From Atopomonas hussainii (GTDB taxonomy: Bacteria; Pseudomonadota; Gammaproteobacteria; Pseudomonadales; Pseudomonadaceae): 64,000 bases of DNA. Numbering within the stretch: the stretch's first letter is position 1; each line of letters begins with the position of its first letter. The notes below the pieces were generated by a model. It worked only from the letters and a program-made list of their open reading frames with translations, did no database searches and was not told the DNA's origin. Shown here one piece after another: positions 29,581 through 33,923 of the stretch. The translations under genes and the position numbers were made by a program. The stretch spans positions 62,001-126,000 of the forward strand of contig NZ_FOAS01000002.1 in assembly GCF_900109735.1 (NCBI RefSeq), written 5' to 3'.

Positions 29581-30492
29581 ATGCAAAAGCGCATTATTAA
29601 TTTTATGGGCCTGCGCAATATTGCGATTGGCCTGACCTTGTTGTTCACCTTGGTGGGTTTGGGCAGTTTGGCGGTGAAGGGCCTGAATTTTGGCCTCGAC
29701 TTCACCGGCGGTGCCTTGGTTGAGCTGCAATACGATCAACCTGCCGAGCTGGATGCCATTCGTGGTCAACTGCGTGAAGCCGGTTACCCCGATGCCGTGG
29801 TGCAGAACTTTGGTGCCACCACCGACGTGGTGGTGCGTATTCAAAGTGAAGACGCCTCGCTGGGTTACGAAGTGGCCGAGGCCTTGCGCAAAGCTGACAC
29901 TAGCAAAGCGCTGGAAGTGAAAAAGGTCGAGTTTATCGGCCCGCAAGTGGGTGAAGAGCTACGCGACCAGGGCGGCATCGGCATGCTGCTGGCCATGTTT
30001 GGCGTGATGCTCTACGTGGTATTCCGCTTCCAGTGGAAGTTCGCCATCGGCTCGCTGGTCACCCTGCTGCACGACGTGATCATCGTGCTGGGTGTGTTCG
30101 CCTTCTTTGGCTGGACGTTCGACCTCACCGTGCTGGCGGCGATTCTGGCCATCATCGGTTACTCGCTGAACGACACCATCGTGGTTTACGACCGTGTGCG
30201 CGAGAACATGCGCATTTTGCGTAAGGCGGATTTGATCGAGAACATCAACATCTCCACCACGCAAACTTTGCTGCGTACCACCGCAACCTCGGTCTCGACC
30301 TTGCTGGCCGTACTGGCGCTGCTGTTCTTCGGCGGCGAAAACCTGTGGGGCTTCGCCATGGCGCTGACCATCGGTGTGATCGTCGGTACTTACTCGTCGG
30401 TGTACGTGTCGAGCGTGTTCCTTATCTGGACTAACTTGACCCGCGAAGACCTGATTCCGCCACAAGTGGAAGAGGTCGACGAGACGCCGTAG
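29581..30492 (+). CDS. secF: Protein translocase subunit SecF
   Basis: The 303-residue partner of SecD has LNFGLDFTGGALVELQYD after the first helix and the SecF signature IIGYSLNDTIVVYDRVREN in the membrane part. The ATG at 29581 is chosen because it matches the usual SecF N-terminus; the longer frame starts within secD. The operon ends at the terminator after it. Confidence 0.97.
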   Translation: MQKRIINFMGLRNIAIGLTLLFTLVGLGSLAVKGLNFGLDFTGGALVELQYDQPAELDAIRGQLREAGYPDAVVQNFGATTDVVVRIQSEDASLGYEVAEALRKADTSKALEVKKVEFIGPQVGEELRDQGGIGMLLAMFGVMLYVVFRFQWKFAIGSLVTLLHDVIIVLGVFAFFGWTFDLTVLAAILAIIGYSLNDTIVVYDRVRENMRILRKADLIENINISTTQTLLRTTATSVSTLLAVLALLFFGGENLWGFAMALTIGVIVGTYSSVYVSSVFLIWTNLTREDLIPPQVEEVDETP

Positions 30493-30522
30493 ATACGTGT
30501 GGTCATCGGTTTGTTCTACTGA

Positions 30523-30554
30523 GCCCTGCGAGGAATTACTCCCGCAGGGCTTTT
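30523..30554 (+). terminator. Terminator of the sec operon
   Basis: GCCCTGCG at 30523-30530 pairs with CGCAGGGC at 30543-30550, followed by TTTT. Confidence 0.85.
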
Positions 30555-30733
30555 GCGTTAAATGCTGGTTGCTATTACATGCTTATGGCTTTCCTTATTG
30601 CTAAAAGGCATAGTCAAGGCGTGTGAGTGCGCACATTGCCGGTGCCTTGGCGCTGGCAAAGTTACCGCTAGCTGCCATGCTTACAGGCAGCGCCCATCAT
30701 CGTTTGGCGGTCTGGTCTCACAAGGAGAGTTGC

Positions 30734-31297
30734 ATGAAACCCTGGCGTTTGTTGGTTCTTGGCGTGGCCCTGGTGTTGCAGGGGTGTTTGGTCAGCTTTA
30801 AAGAGCCGCTGCCGCAGGCCGAGCGTGCGCCAGTGCATTTGCTGGGTGTTTGGACGCGGGTTGATGAGTGGGGCGATAAGCTGTTTTTAGACCTGCGCCG
30901 GGTGGGCAACAACCAGTACCGCGCCTTGGCGTATGTGAACTCACCGAAAAATACGCAAACCCGCGAGCAATACAGCTTCATCGTTAATCATCGTGGCAGC
31001 CGCTGGTATTTGTCCGCAGGCTTGCCGAAAAGCTTGGGCGGCAATTATGTCTTGGCGGGTTTCGAGCTGAATAAACACGATGAGTTGGTGATTTATAACC
31101 TCGATGTCGATCGCCTGCTGCAAGAGCTGGAGATGGGCACGCTCAGCGGTGAGCTGGTCGAAACACCGCATGGTGATGGCGCCCTGATTAGCGAAGATTG
31201 GGACAAAGTGTTCAGTTATCTGGATGATCCCGCCAATGCCGATATTTTTATCGAAGTAGCCCGTTACGAGCGGGTTACTCAGGCCGATCAGGAGTGA
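30734..31297 (+). CDS. Putative lipoprotein of unknown function
   Basis: The 187-residue protein begins with a lipoprotein signal MKPWRLLVLGVALVLQGC; the cysteine after LVLQG is the probable lipidation site. The mature part has no domain I recognise; it contains LLGVWTRVDEWGDKLFLDLRRVG, resembling small periplasmic beta-rich domains. AAGGAG precedes the ATG. The stop lies two bases before the start of the QEGLA-motif gene, and its last codons carry that gene's ribosome-binding site, so the two are likely co-transcribed. The 180 bp upstream hold its promoter and no other gene. Confidence 0.75.
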   Translation: MKPWRLLVLGVALVLQGCLVSFKEPLPQAERAPVHLLGVWTRVDEWGDKLFLDLRRVGNNQYRALAYVNSPKNTQTREQYSFIVNHRGSRWYLSAGLPKSLGGNYVLAGFELNKHDELVIYNLDVDRLLQELEMGTLSGELVETPHGDGALISEDWDKVFSYLDDPANADIFIEVARYERVTQADQE

Positions 31298-31299
31298 CC

Positions 31300-32592
31300 G
31301 TGGCCAAAAAGAAATTGAATGAGTACCAGCAAACGGTGCGTGACCTGTCTGATCGCATCGTTGAGGCGCAGTCGCCAATCCGTGTGCTAGACGCGATTAA
31401 GTGGGATGACAGCGTAAAGGCTGAGTTTTTTAAGCATAAAGCCAAAGAGCTGCCCAAAATCGACAAAAGCTACTACGCCAACTCGGCGCTATCGTTCGAT
31501 AGCGAAGCGAAGAAGCTGCAATTCCAAGAGATTGAACGCGACATCACCCGCCAGCTCGGGCAGTTCAATCCGGTAGGGCAAATCATGCGCCGTATGTGCC
31601 GTGAGTACCGCATGGTGGTGCGCATGCTGGAGGCACGCGGTACGCCGGATATGGGGCTGATCTCGCAAGAGCTGTATGGCTCGGCTTCCGATGCGTTCCA
31701 TGCCGGTGACCCCACCCTATCGGACCTAGGCATGATGCTTTCGGAGGCACTGCAAAATATCTCCGACCGCAGCGACTTGGTTGACGAGCCCAAAGACTTA
31801 AACGCCAAACAAGCGGTCAAGATGCTCCAAGAGCGTCTGAACAAGAGTTTTGGCGAGGCCGAAGGCACGATTCGCGTGTTTGAGTCCGACGGCATTCTGG
31901 CGGATGCCGCAGCCGGTGCCGACTACATCAAGATTCGCAGCGATGCCATGTTCAACGAGCGCGATATTCGCGTACTCGAAGTGCATGAAGGTCTAGTGCA
32001 CGTGGGCACCACGCTGAATGGCCAAGCGCAGCCGATCTGCACTTTCTTGGCTAAAGGCCCGCCGTCATCGACCATCACCCAAGAAGGCTTGGCGATCCTG
32101 ATGGAGGTGTTTTCGTTTGCCTCGTACCCGTCCCGGTTGCGCAAACTCACCAACCGCACTCGGGCCATTCACATGGCGGAAGAGGGCGGTGATTTCCTCG
32201 ATATCTACCGCTTTTACTTGGATGAGGGCTATAACGAGGACGACTCGTTCACCAATGCCAGTCGGGTATTCCGTGGCTCCACGCCGAATGGGCAGCCATT
32301 TACCAAAGACCTGTCGTACACCAAGGGTTTTATCATGGTGTACAACTTCATCCAGTTTGCCGTGCGTAAGGGCAAGCTTGACCGCATCCCGTTGCTGTTC
32401 TGCGGTAAAACCACCTTGGAAGACATGCGCACGCTGAGCCAATTGGTCGAAGAGGGCTTAGTGGTACCGCCTCAGGTGCTGCCGCCGCAAATGCGCGATT
32501 TGAATGCTTTGTCGGCGTGGATGTGTTTCTCCAATTTCTTGAACCATTTGAGCTTGGATCGCATCGAAGCGGATTACGCCAATATTCTTTAA
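31300..32592 (+). CDS. DUF1704/QEGLA-motif putative zinc peptidase
   Basis: The 430-residue protein has the family hallmark QEGLA (TITQEGLAILMEV, Glu262) and an upstream HEGLVH at residues 229-234. These form an HExxxH zinc motif with a third Glu ligand, the arrangement seen in the DUF1704 relatives that include the eukaryotic tubulin tyrosine carboxypeptidase MATCAP. Bacterial members are often labelled 'flavohemoglobin expression-modulating', on thin grounds. GTG at 31300 is preferred to GTG at 31294 because AGGAG then has a five-base spacing. Substrate unknown; no signal peptide. Confidence 0.85.
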   Translation: MAKKKLNEYQQTVRDLSDRIVEAQSPIRVLDAIKWDDSVKAEFFKHKAKELPKIDKSYYANSALSFDSEAKKLQFQEIERDITRQLGQFNPVGQIMRRMCREYRMVVRMLEARGTPDMGLISQELYGSASDAFHAGDPTLSDLGMMLSEALQNISDRSDLVDEPKDLNAKQAVKMLQERLNKSFGEAEGTIRVFESDGILADAAAGADYIKIRSDAMFNERDIRVLEVHEGLVHVGTTLNGQAQPICTFLAKGPPSSTITQEGLAILMEVFSFASYPSRLRKLTNRTRAIHMAEEGGDFLDIYRFYLDEGYNEDDSFTNASRVFRGSTPNGQPFTKDLSYTKGFIMVYNFIQFAVRKGKLDRIPLLFCGKTTLEDMRTLSQLVEEGLVVPPQVLPPQMRDLNALSAWMCFSNFLNHLSLDRIEADYANIL

Positions 32593-32602
32593 GGGTGCCG
32601 CC

Positions 32603-32637
32603 AAGCCTGCTCTGACGTGCGTTGGAGCAGGCTTTTT
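32603..32637 (+). terminator. Terminator after the QEGLA-motif gene
   Basis: AAGCCTGCTC pairs perfectly with GAGCAGGCTT around a 12-base loop and runs into T5. Confidence 0.9.
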
Positions 32638-32667
32638 GTTGCCCGCGACTGTTTAAAAGGAGACTGC

Positions 32668-33420
32668 ATGCCCGCTCATCAAATTGACTACCGCATCCAT
32701 GGCGCATCCCTGCAAGCGCTGGAGGTCAGTCTGGATCCCGGCGAAGCGGTGATTGCCGAAGCCGGCTCGATGATTTTTATGCAGGAAGATATTCGCTTCG
32801 ACACGCGCTTAGGCGATGGCAGTGAATCCGGCATGCTGGGCAAGTTATGGGGTGTGGGTAAGCGCTTGCTCACCGGCGAGTCGTTGTTTATGACTCACTT
32901 CAGTAACGACGGCAAAGTACCCCGCAGCGTCGGCTTTGCCGCGCCGTATCCCGGCTCGATTGAGCCAGTCCACTTGCCCGAAGTCGGCGGCGCACTGATT
33001 TGCCAGAAAGACAGCTTTCTAGCCGCCGCGCACGGCACTTCGGTGGGCATCACCTTTAGCAAGCGCATTGGTGCCGGCTTATTCGGTGGTGAAGGGTTTA
33101 TCTTGCAGAAGCTCGAAGGCGACGGCATGGCGTTTATTCACGCCGGCGGTACGCTAATTCGTCGCGAGCTGAACAACGAAACCTTACGCTTAGACACCGG
33201 CTGCTTAGTGGCCTTTAGCGCCGGGTTGGATTACAGCATTGCCTTAAGCGGCGGCTTGAAAAGCTTGCTGTTTGGTGGCGAAGGCTTACTCTTGGCCACC
33301 TTAAAAGGCACGGGCACGGTGTGGATTCAAAGCTTGCCCTTCGCGCGCTTAGCCGACCGCATGGCGGTGGCCATGGCAGGGCGTGGGCCGCAGGGCGAAA
33401 CCCGTGCCGGTGGTGATTGA
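32668..33420 (+). CDS. AIM24/TIGR00266 family protein
   Basis: The 250-residue protein has the repeated beta pattern of the AIM24 (TIGR00266) family: [23 protein letters not shown] near the start, [24 protein letters not shown] and [28 protein letters not shown] segments. Role in bacteria unknown. AAAGGAGA precedes the ATG. A small membrane-protein gene follows 14 bp after it. Confidence 0.85.
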
Positions 33421-33434
33421 TTAAGGAGTTTTAC

Positions 33435-33758
33435 ATGGCTGTGAATAACCCGCTGCCGTACATCTTTACCGCGATTGGCAGCGTTGCGGCGACGGTCGTC
33501 GCACTGAATTACTACGGCTATATGCATGTGGCCAAACCGCAAGACGCCTTGCTGTTGGCTGAGTTCACCATGCTCAAAACCTATGAGGGCGAAGACTACC
33601 GTCTCAGCCTGAAACCAGCCGAGCAAGTGGCCCAGTGCGTCGATGGCGTACTGGTGCTGTTTGACACTAAACAGCAAGGCCTCACCGGCGTGCTGGTGGA
33701 CGACAAAAAGCGCGCCGTGCGTTGTACACAGGGAAGGCCAGAGCGGCAAGTGCGCTAG
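33435..33758 (+). CDS. Small hypothetical protein with one membrane segment
   Basis: The 107-residue protein has an N-terminal hydrophobic segment (PYIFTAIGSVAATVVALNYYGYM), probably an anchor, and a soluble tail of about 75 residues with two cysteines (QCVDGVLVLFD and VRCTQG). No domain recognised. AAGGAG precedes the ATG at 33435; it is probably co-transcribed with the AIM24 gene. Confidence 0.65.
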   Translation: MAVNNPLPYIFTAIGSVAATVVALNYYGYMHVAKPQDALLLAEFTMLKTYEGEDYRLSLKPAEQVAQCVDGVLVLFDTKQQGLTGVLVDDKKRAVRCTQGRPERQVR

Positions 33759-33923
33759 CTAGCTGAGTTCAGCTACAGGTTTCCTGTCGTTTAGCACGAG
33801 TGGCCCTGTGCTTTCCTGGATCACACCAAACGATGCGTGTGTCCTTTAAAACACCTGCCTTCGTGCTACCCTTGCGGCCATTTTCTGCCTGTCCGCAGGC
33901 GCCGGTTTGTTAGTTGCACACGC

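Follow-up and report, generated by a model that had tools for sequence, protein, structure and literature searches.

The closest described relatives of the bacterial protein analysed here are human MATCAP1 and MATCAP2 (also named TMCP1 and TMCP2, or KIAA0895L and KIAA0895; structures 7z5g and 7z6s). They belong to the same Pfam family and have the same fold and HExxxH motif, and they share with the bacterial protein a downstream EG motif and an RG...KD..Y block, at 19–20% identity in the structural alignment. According to two reports, the glutamate E281 is required in the human enzyme (PMC10499314, PMC13269789). PMC10499314 also describes that TMCP/MATCAP enzymes take off glutamate and shorten polyglutamate, and that the Tetrahymena TMCP probably removes alanine too. 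Human MATCAP, a microtubule-binding enzyme, takes tyrosine off alpha-tubulin, whereas the bacterium that carries the gene described below has no known tubulin substrate.

That gene lies in a stretch of 64,000 nucleotides from Atopomonas hussainii, hereafter called the window. The following features of the window are discussed.

30734–31297, plus strand: lipoprotein of unknown family, 187 residues, with an LQGC lipobox-like motif recognised by eye
31300–32592, plus strand: putative QEGLA/MATCAP-family zinc metallocarboxypeptidase, 430 residues (PF08014, TIGR02421, AlphaFold2 pLDDT 90.4)
31984–32001, plus strand: codons of H229-E230-G-L-V-H234, the predicted zinc ligands and general base (conserved in 59/59 sequences, aligned to HEIGTH)
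32080–32094, plus strand: codons of QEGLA, with E262 as predicted third zinc ligand (Q261 and E262 in 59/59 sequences, aligned to TEEGLA)
32603–32634, plus strand: intrinsic-terminator-like hairpin with a 14-pair stem, just 3′ of the QEGLA gene
32668–33420, plus strand: gene of the AIM24/TIGR00266 family that may have a transcript of its own (PF01987, 236.1 bits)
33435–33758, plus strand: PA3694-family small protein (NF053721, 127.9 bits)

Translation of the QEGLA gene from the GTG codon at 31300 gives a protein of 430 residues. A second in-frame GTG at 31294 would lengthen it by two residues, but the start at 31300 is favoured because the sequence AGGAG sits at 31290–31294, five bases ahead of it. 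The protein scored 446.7 bits against PF08014 (MATCAP; Pfam cut-off 27) and 413.3 bits against TIGR02421 (QEGLA), thus passing the curated cut-off (338.65) of the NCBIfam model named 'flavohemoglobin expression-modulating QEGLA motif protein'. Public databases therefore already record the family membership, and the link to MATCAP, given in Pfam, is not new. An earlier note, made from the sequence alone, had described a zinc motif of the form HExxxH...E and had placed the protein in the DUF1704/MATCAP group. Both statements were borne out, the first by HEGLVH at residues 229–234 and by QEGLA at residues 261–265, which makes E262 the E of the family-name motif, and the second by the PF08014 score and by a fold match to human MATCAP. 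From the composition of the protein, 0.006 HExxxH matches would be expected, and HExxxH followed 20–45 residues later by [QE]EG was present in some frame of all 80 named loci. No signal peptide was visible by eye at the N-terminus, and the protein is probably cytosolic.

We aligned 59 sequences with a complete motif, consisting of the window's own copy (L111) and 58 relatives with about 17–78% identity to it. Twenty positions were identical in 59/59 sequences, namely H229, E230, H234, N240, Q261, E262, G263, A265, E269, R279, R286, F299, R322, R325, G326, K336, D337, Y340, G343 and G369, and the same positions were invariant in a subset of 40 (39 relatives and the window protein). One of 60 loci (L071, genome G249) was excluded because its copy has a stop and its open reading frame lacks the HExxxH half; this degraded copy is found in a genome that gave no RimK match. 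The earlier note had named conservation of H229, H234 and E262 as a point on which its proposal could fail, and these three residues are among the invariant ones. In the literature searched, no activity or function was found for any bacterial MATCAP member, which would suit an inactive scaffold that had retained the fold alone. We consider such a scaffold very unlikely, and unexpected because the 58 relatives, in spite of this range of identities, agree with the window protein at every predicted catalytic and zinc residue.

The AlphaFold2 model of the window protein, built with 38 relatives, had a pLDDT of 90.4 and a pTM of 0.90. HExxxH lies in a helix of residues 220–242 and QEGLA in a helix of residues 257–271. 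The earlier note had proposed structure prediction as a check on whether the three putative ligands would fall far apart; no sign of this was seen, and by the helix assignment and the fold match they lie on two helices within a MATCAP-like fold. The best PDB match of the model in Foldseek was human MATCAP (E = 3.6e-6), and structural alignment to 7z6s, in chain C of which (7z6s_C) Q replaces the catalytic Glu, gave a Z score of 23.4 and an rmsd of 3.0 over 295 aligned residues. Next came 3iuk (titled DUF885; Z 18.7) and two putative lipoproteins (Z 16.0 and 16.5). Carboxypeptidases of family M32 followed at Z about 9.5–11.4, and oligoendopeptidase F, ACE and similar enzymes at Z about 7–9; according to the tool's caution, Z scores under about 13 can reflect a common arrangement of helical folds. 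At the level of sequence, a profile of 40 family sequences reached human MATCAP1 at E = 2e-17, with HEIGTH aligned to the HExxxH columns and TEEGLA to the QEGLA columns. A single-sequence search of PDB sequences with the window protein missed MATCAP and returned one chance match (E = 3.2).

These comparisons also bear on the type of peptidase. The zinc motif of M32 carboxypeptidases is HExxH, and the window protein, which resembles them in overall fold (Z about 9.5–11.4), differs from them in having HExxxH. A zinc dipeptidase, endopeptidase or aminopeptidase in place of a carboxypeptidase would be in keeping with the likeness of the model's overall fold to oligoendopeptidase F and ACE (Z 7–9), since M2 and M3 enzymes of similar fold include endopeptidases and dipeptidases, and with the presence of HExxxH in the aminopeptidase DPP III (PMC10499314). 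However, the closest fold is that of MATCAP (Z 23.4), and carboxypeptidases are the next among named enzymes, so that we regard a peptidase of another type as unlikely. The motif that the window protein has in common with M49 (DPP III) is by itself no proof of membership; DPP III was absent among the matches listed by the Foldseek and Z-score searches, an absence that excludes nothing.

In our view the window protein is likely to be a zinc metallopeptidase from the bacterial part of the MATCAP family, cytosolic and stand-alone, and most likely a carboxypeptidase. Sequence and predicted fold lend good support to this zinc carboxypeptidase reading, but not to a tubulin-type substrate. Zinc would be held by H229, H234 and E262, and water would be activated by E230. 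The C-terminal carboxylate of the substrate would probably be held by the invariant residues R322, R325, K336 and Y340, and a flexible tail would be shortened from its end by single residues.

PF08014 was present in 53 of 397 Pseudomonadota genomes and in 15 of 247 genomes from a phylum taken as Bacteroidota on the basis of a Flammeovirgaceae record. A midpoint-rooted tree of 125 sequences placed every one of the 32 sequences with the motif HE[ILV]G[VIT]H in a single clade (support 1.0), hereafter clade C, to which 13 of the 15 Bacteroidota genomes contributed. The window protein belongs to branch A, whose members have the motif HEG[LMW]VH and, like it, stand alone. Branch B, mostly with HEA[FLY][VI]H and few exceptions (e.g. 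L184), was found in Xanthomonadales, many Pseudomonas and scattered others, and it supplies the second MATCAP copy in genomes G011 and G422. At several branch-B loci (L072, L073, L078, L081 and others), a gene for an RsgA-like ribosome-assembly GTPase lies just upstream of the MATCAP gene. When profiles of 13 sequences each were searched against human MATCAP1, Bacteroidota clade C scored 62.9 bits and branch B 24.8 bits, and branch A, that of the window, gave no match at E ≤ 1; a 19-sequence profile of Pseudomonadota clade C scored 66.7 bits. By this measure, the human enzyme is nearest to clade C, and branch A is the farthest from it. The earlier note had likened the window protein to tubulin-tyrosine carboxypeptidases. 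This likeness stands for the motif and the family, but carrying over the tubulin-tyrosine role overstated it, because the branch A profile misses human MATCAP and TMCP/MATCAP enzymes also trim glutamate.

No relative of the window protein turned up in one scan of the viral collection. The phage collection yielded a single record, 'Pseudomonas phage Y1' (OQ572403.1:63425-64708), in which there is a QEGLA protein with 78% identity to that of the window, perhaps encoded by bacterial DNA in the record. Another unusual copy is a frame of 1427 residues with a C-terminal MATCAP domain (L152:2956-7239), the first thousand residues of which have no Pfam match; it is either a true fusion or an over-extended frame.

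The genes around the window's QEGLA gene were compared with those at same-family (Pseudomonadaceae) loci. The stop codon of the lipoprotein gene lies 2 nt ahead of GTG 31300, and a homologue of the lipoprotein adjoins the QEGLA gene in 13/20 of these loci, the window included; the coupling of the two genes asserted in the earlier note agrees with both the narrow gap and this retention. A PA3694-family gene is near QEGLA in 15/20 loci, an AIM24 gene in 7/20, and 16/20 loci have one or more of the three. The outer neighbours vary, being secDF and mutS in the window and prfB- and lysS-like genes elsewhere (names by sequence reading). The lipoprotein had no Pfam or NCBIfam match, and its predicted structure alone was poor and beta-rich (pLDDT 55.3). 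The hairpin at 32603–32634 suggests that the lipoprotein and QEGLA genes end one transcript there; the case for a terminator is the length of its stem, because the scan of 3.5 kb gave 6 sites where 4.1 were expected. Promoter-like sites were absent from 30400–33900 (2.0 expected in shuffles), and the two-gene unit is therefore argued from gene spacing and the hairpin alone. The lipoprotein would be extracytoplasmic and the QEGLA protein cytosolic, which makes a shared pathway likelier than contact between them.

The database name would have the window protein modulate the expression of flavohaemoglobin, and the TIGR02421 name itself speaks for this. ('QEGLA' and the flavohaemoglobin phrase occur in PMC10308900.) The genome counts also seem to favour it at first sight: flavohaemoprotein NF009805 was over its cut-off in 29/53 MATCAP genomes and in 59/344 others (p = 2e-8; 88/397 Pseudomonadota genomes overall). 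However, 24 of the 53 MATCAP genomes had no flavohaemoprotein over the cut-off, and the excess was due to the window's own family (20/21, with the window's genome as the exception), outside which the count was 9/32 (p = 0.15). In the 29 genomes with both genes, 11 gene pairs were on one contig at a distance of at least 162 kb, and the other 18 were on different contigs. Moreover, globin (PF00042) was absent from the 99.95% complete host genome in a search that was positive for 3 of 14 controls, E. coli and B. subtilis among them. The name cannot be right for the window gene because its host genome is without a globin, and the reading is hardly credible. The label explains nothing here, as the earlier note had argued, and should be dropped for this gene.

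Stand-alone MATCAPs and RimK tend to share genomes by our counts, although these were uncorrected for phylogeny: RimK was present in 41/43 Gammaproteobacteria genomes with a stand-alone MATCAP and in 59/121 others (p = 1e-8), and in 20/22 after removal of the window's family (p = 1.6e-4). The two genomes without RimK were G249, which has the broken copy, and G361, which also has a clade-C copy. In the host genome, RimK adjoins a RimB-type gene. At L106:3043-3948, a RimK over the cut-off (448.7 bits) is divergent from a branch-A MATCAP gene at 317 bp; RimK lies 4.9 kb from MATCAP at L089, and a match just below the cut-off (327.6 vs 331) lies 2.8 kb off at L084. The genome of L106 (G285) has a second RimK elsewhere. 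Known deglutamylases include human TMCP2 and the Tetrahymena TMCP (PMC10499314), and because these enzymes remove glutamates, tails made by RimK are a reasonable, though unproven, candidate substrate of stand-alone MATCAPs. The narrower proposal that the window protein acts as a deglutamylase on RimK-made polyglutamate, whether on the tail of ribosomal protein S6 or free, is nevertheless improbable in our view. In the window, QEGLA has no RimK nearby, such a ligase was found near only 3/123 non-clade-C loci, and RimB has already been reported to take off RimK-added glutamates (PMC12239564).

A close association with a ligase was found in clade C. Based on all open reading frames, an ATP-grasp gene lay no more than 2.1 kb from MATCAP, with the strand in common, at 14/19 Pseudomonadota and 13/13 Bacteroidota clade-C loci (27/32 in total, among L053–L070 and L220–L232), compared with 0/123 non-clade-C loci. 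An FGase-like amidohydrolase domain (PF05013), fused or nearby, was present at 13/19 and 13/13 of the clade-C loci, respectively. The ligase gene was at most 75 bp from MATCAP or overlapped it in 22 of the 27 paired loci; in four it was 0.8–2.0 kb off, with the FGase gene adjoining MATCAP, and at L231 it was inside an over-long frame. Five clade-C loci had no ligase, four of which encode short stand-alone proteins. The fifth (L060:11061-12110) has a clade-C MATCAP gene with neither FGase nor ligase, the start of which is overlapped by a gene for an AstE/AspA-type zinc hydrolase.

The family of the clade-C ligases is NF009110 (PRK12458, named 'glutathione synthetase'), the cut-off of which (408 bits) was exceeded at 14/14 Pseudomonadota and 12/13 Bacteroidota paired loci, with L228 just under it at 396.9. 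The residues K135, K176, D294, E302 and N304 (L058 numbering), which we take to be the ATP-grasp core, were identical in 29 ATP-grasp open reading frames of clade-C loci. Of the 397 Pseudomonadota genomes, 11 had NF009110 matches over the cut-off, 13 in number; each of these was <1 kb from a MATCAP domain, and all 11 genomes were among the 53 with MATCAP (hypergeometric p = 9e-11, uncorrected for phylogeny). At least 6 of these 11 genomes had a second, lower-scoring GshB-like match.

Since the NF009110 ligase was never seen over the cut-off without the MATCAP family in these genomes, a writer/eraser pair is suggested. TTL, an ATP-grasp enzyme, adds tyrosine in the tubulin tyrosination cycle, and MATCAP takes it off. 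As a tentative proposal, which we hold to be possible rather than probable, the clade-C MATCAP and the PRK12458 ATP-grasp enzyme would write and erase at C-termini in a manner like the tubulin cycle, of which they may be a forerunner, and stand-alone members would be erasers of other tails. If so, the PRK12458 name 'glutathione synthetase' would be wrong or incomplete, and stand-alone erasers such as the window protein would trim gene-encoded tails or those made by ligases such as RimK. On the other hand, 8/19 clade-C ligases tested also exceeded the cut-off (272 bits) of the glutathione synthase equivalog NF003573. The ligases may do no more than produce glutathione or a similar peptide, on which the clade-C MATCAP may act. 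At L224 and L225, the FGase–MATCAP pair is flanked by two PRK12458-type ligase genes, one of which passes the glutathione synthase cut-off in each case and the other does not. Downstream of the MATCAP–ligase cluster at L064 and co-directional with it (L064:5265-8277) are RloA- and RloB-like genes, which score below the NCBI cut-offs, and a TIGR02291 ATP-grasp gene over its cut-off, taken as RloC-like; at L070:2688-4735, at least RloA- and RloB-like genes follow the cluster directly. No description of an operon of amidohydrolase, ATP-grasp enzyme and peptidase was found in the literature searched, although an earlier description is possible; a gene-neighbourhood survey of ATP-grasp enzymes was reportedly made in 2009.

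The ligase pairing in clade C is the most informative feature, though it lies in another branch than the window protein. Judged from this pairing, the bacterial family may serve to edit peptide ends that a ligase has made or extended. MATCAP together with one ATP-grasp subfamily forms a concrete two-gene system, for which the 'glutathione synthetase' label is worth checking. If bacterial MATCAPs edit C-termini, they would represent an overlooked layer of bacterial modification, and the origin of the animal tubulin-editing enzyme would become testable.

The window protein compares with these systems as follows. Its HEGLVH motif stands against HEIGTH in human MATCAP. It has the same invariant residues as the clade-C MATCAPs but, unlike them, neither an FGase domain nor a ligase neighbour: no ATP-grasp gene was found by the window gene and no NF009110 match over the cut-off in the host genome, whose best match to a clade-C ligase had 31% identity. 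Most clade-C loci have an ATP-grasp ligase as partner, which branch A lacks. RimK/RimB and RloC/RloA of Pseudomonas, as described in PMC12239564, are also pairs of an ATP-grasp protein and a protease, but their proteases are retropepsin-like aspartic enzymes and not MATCAPs.
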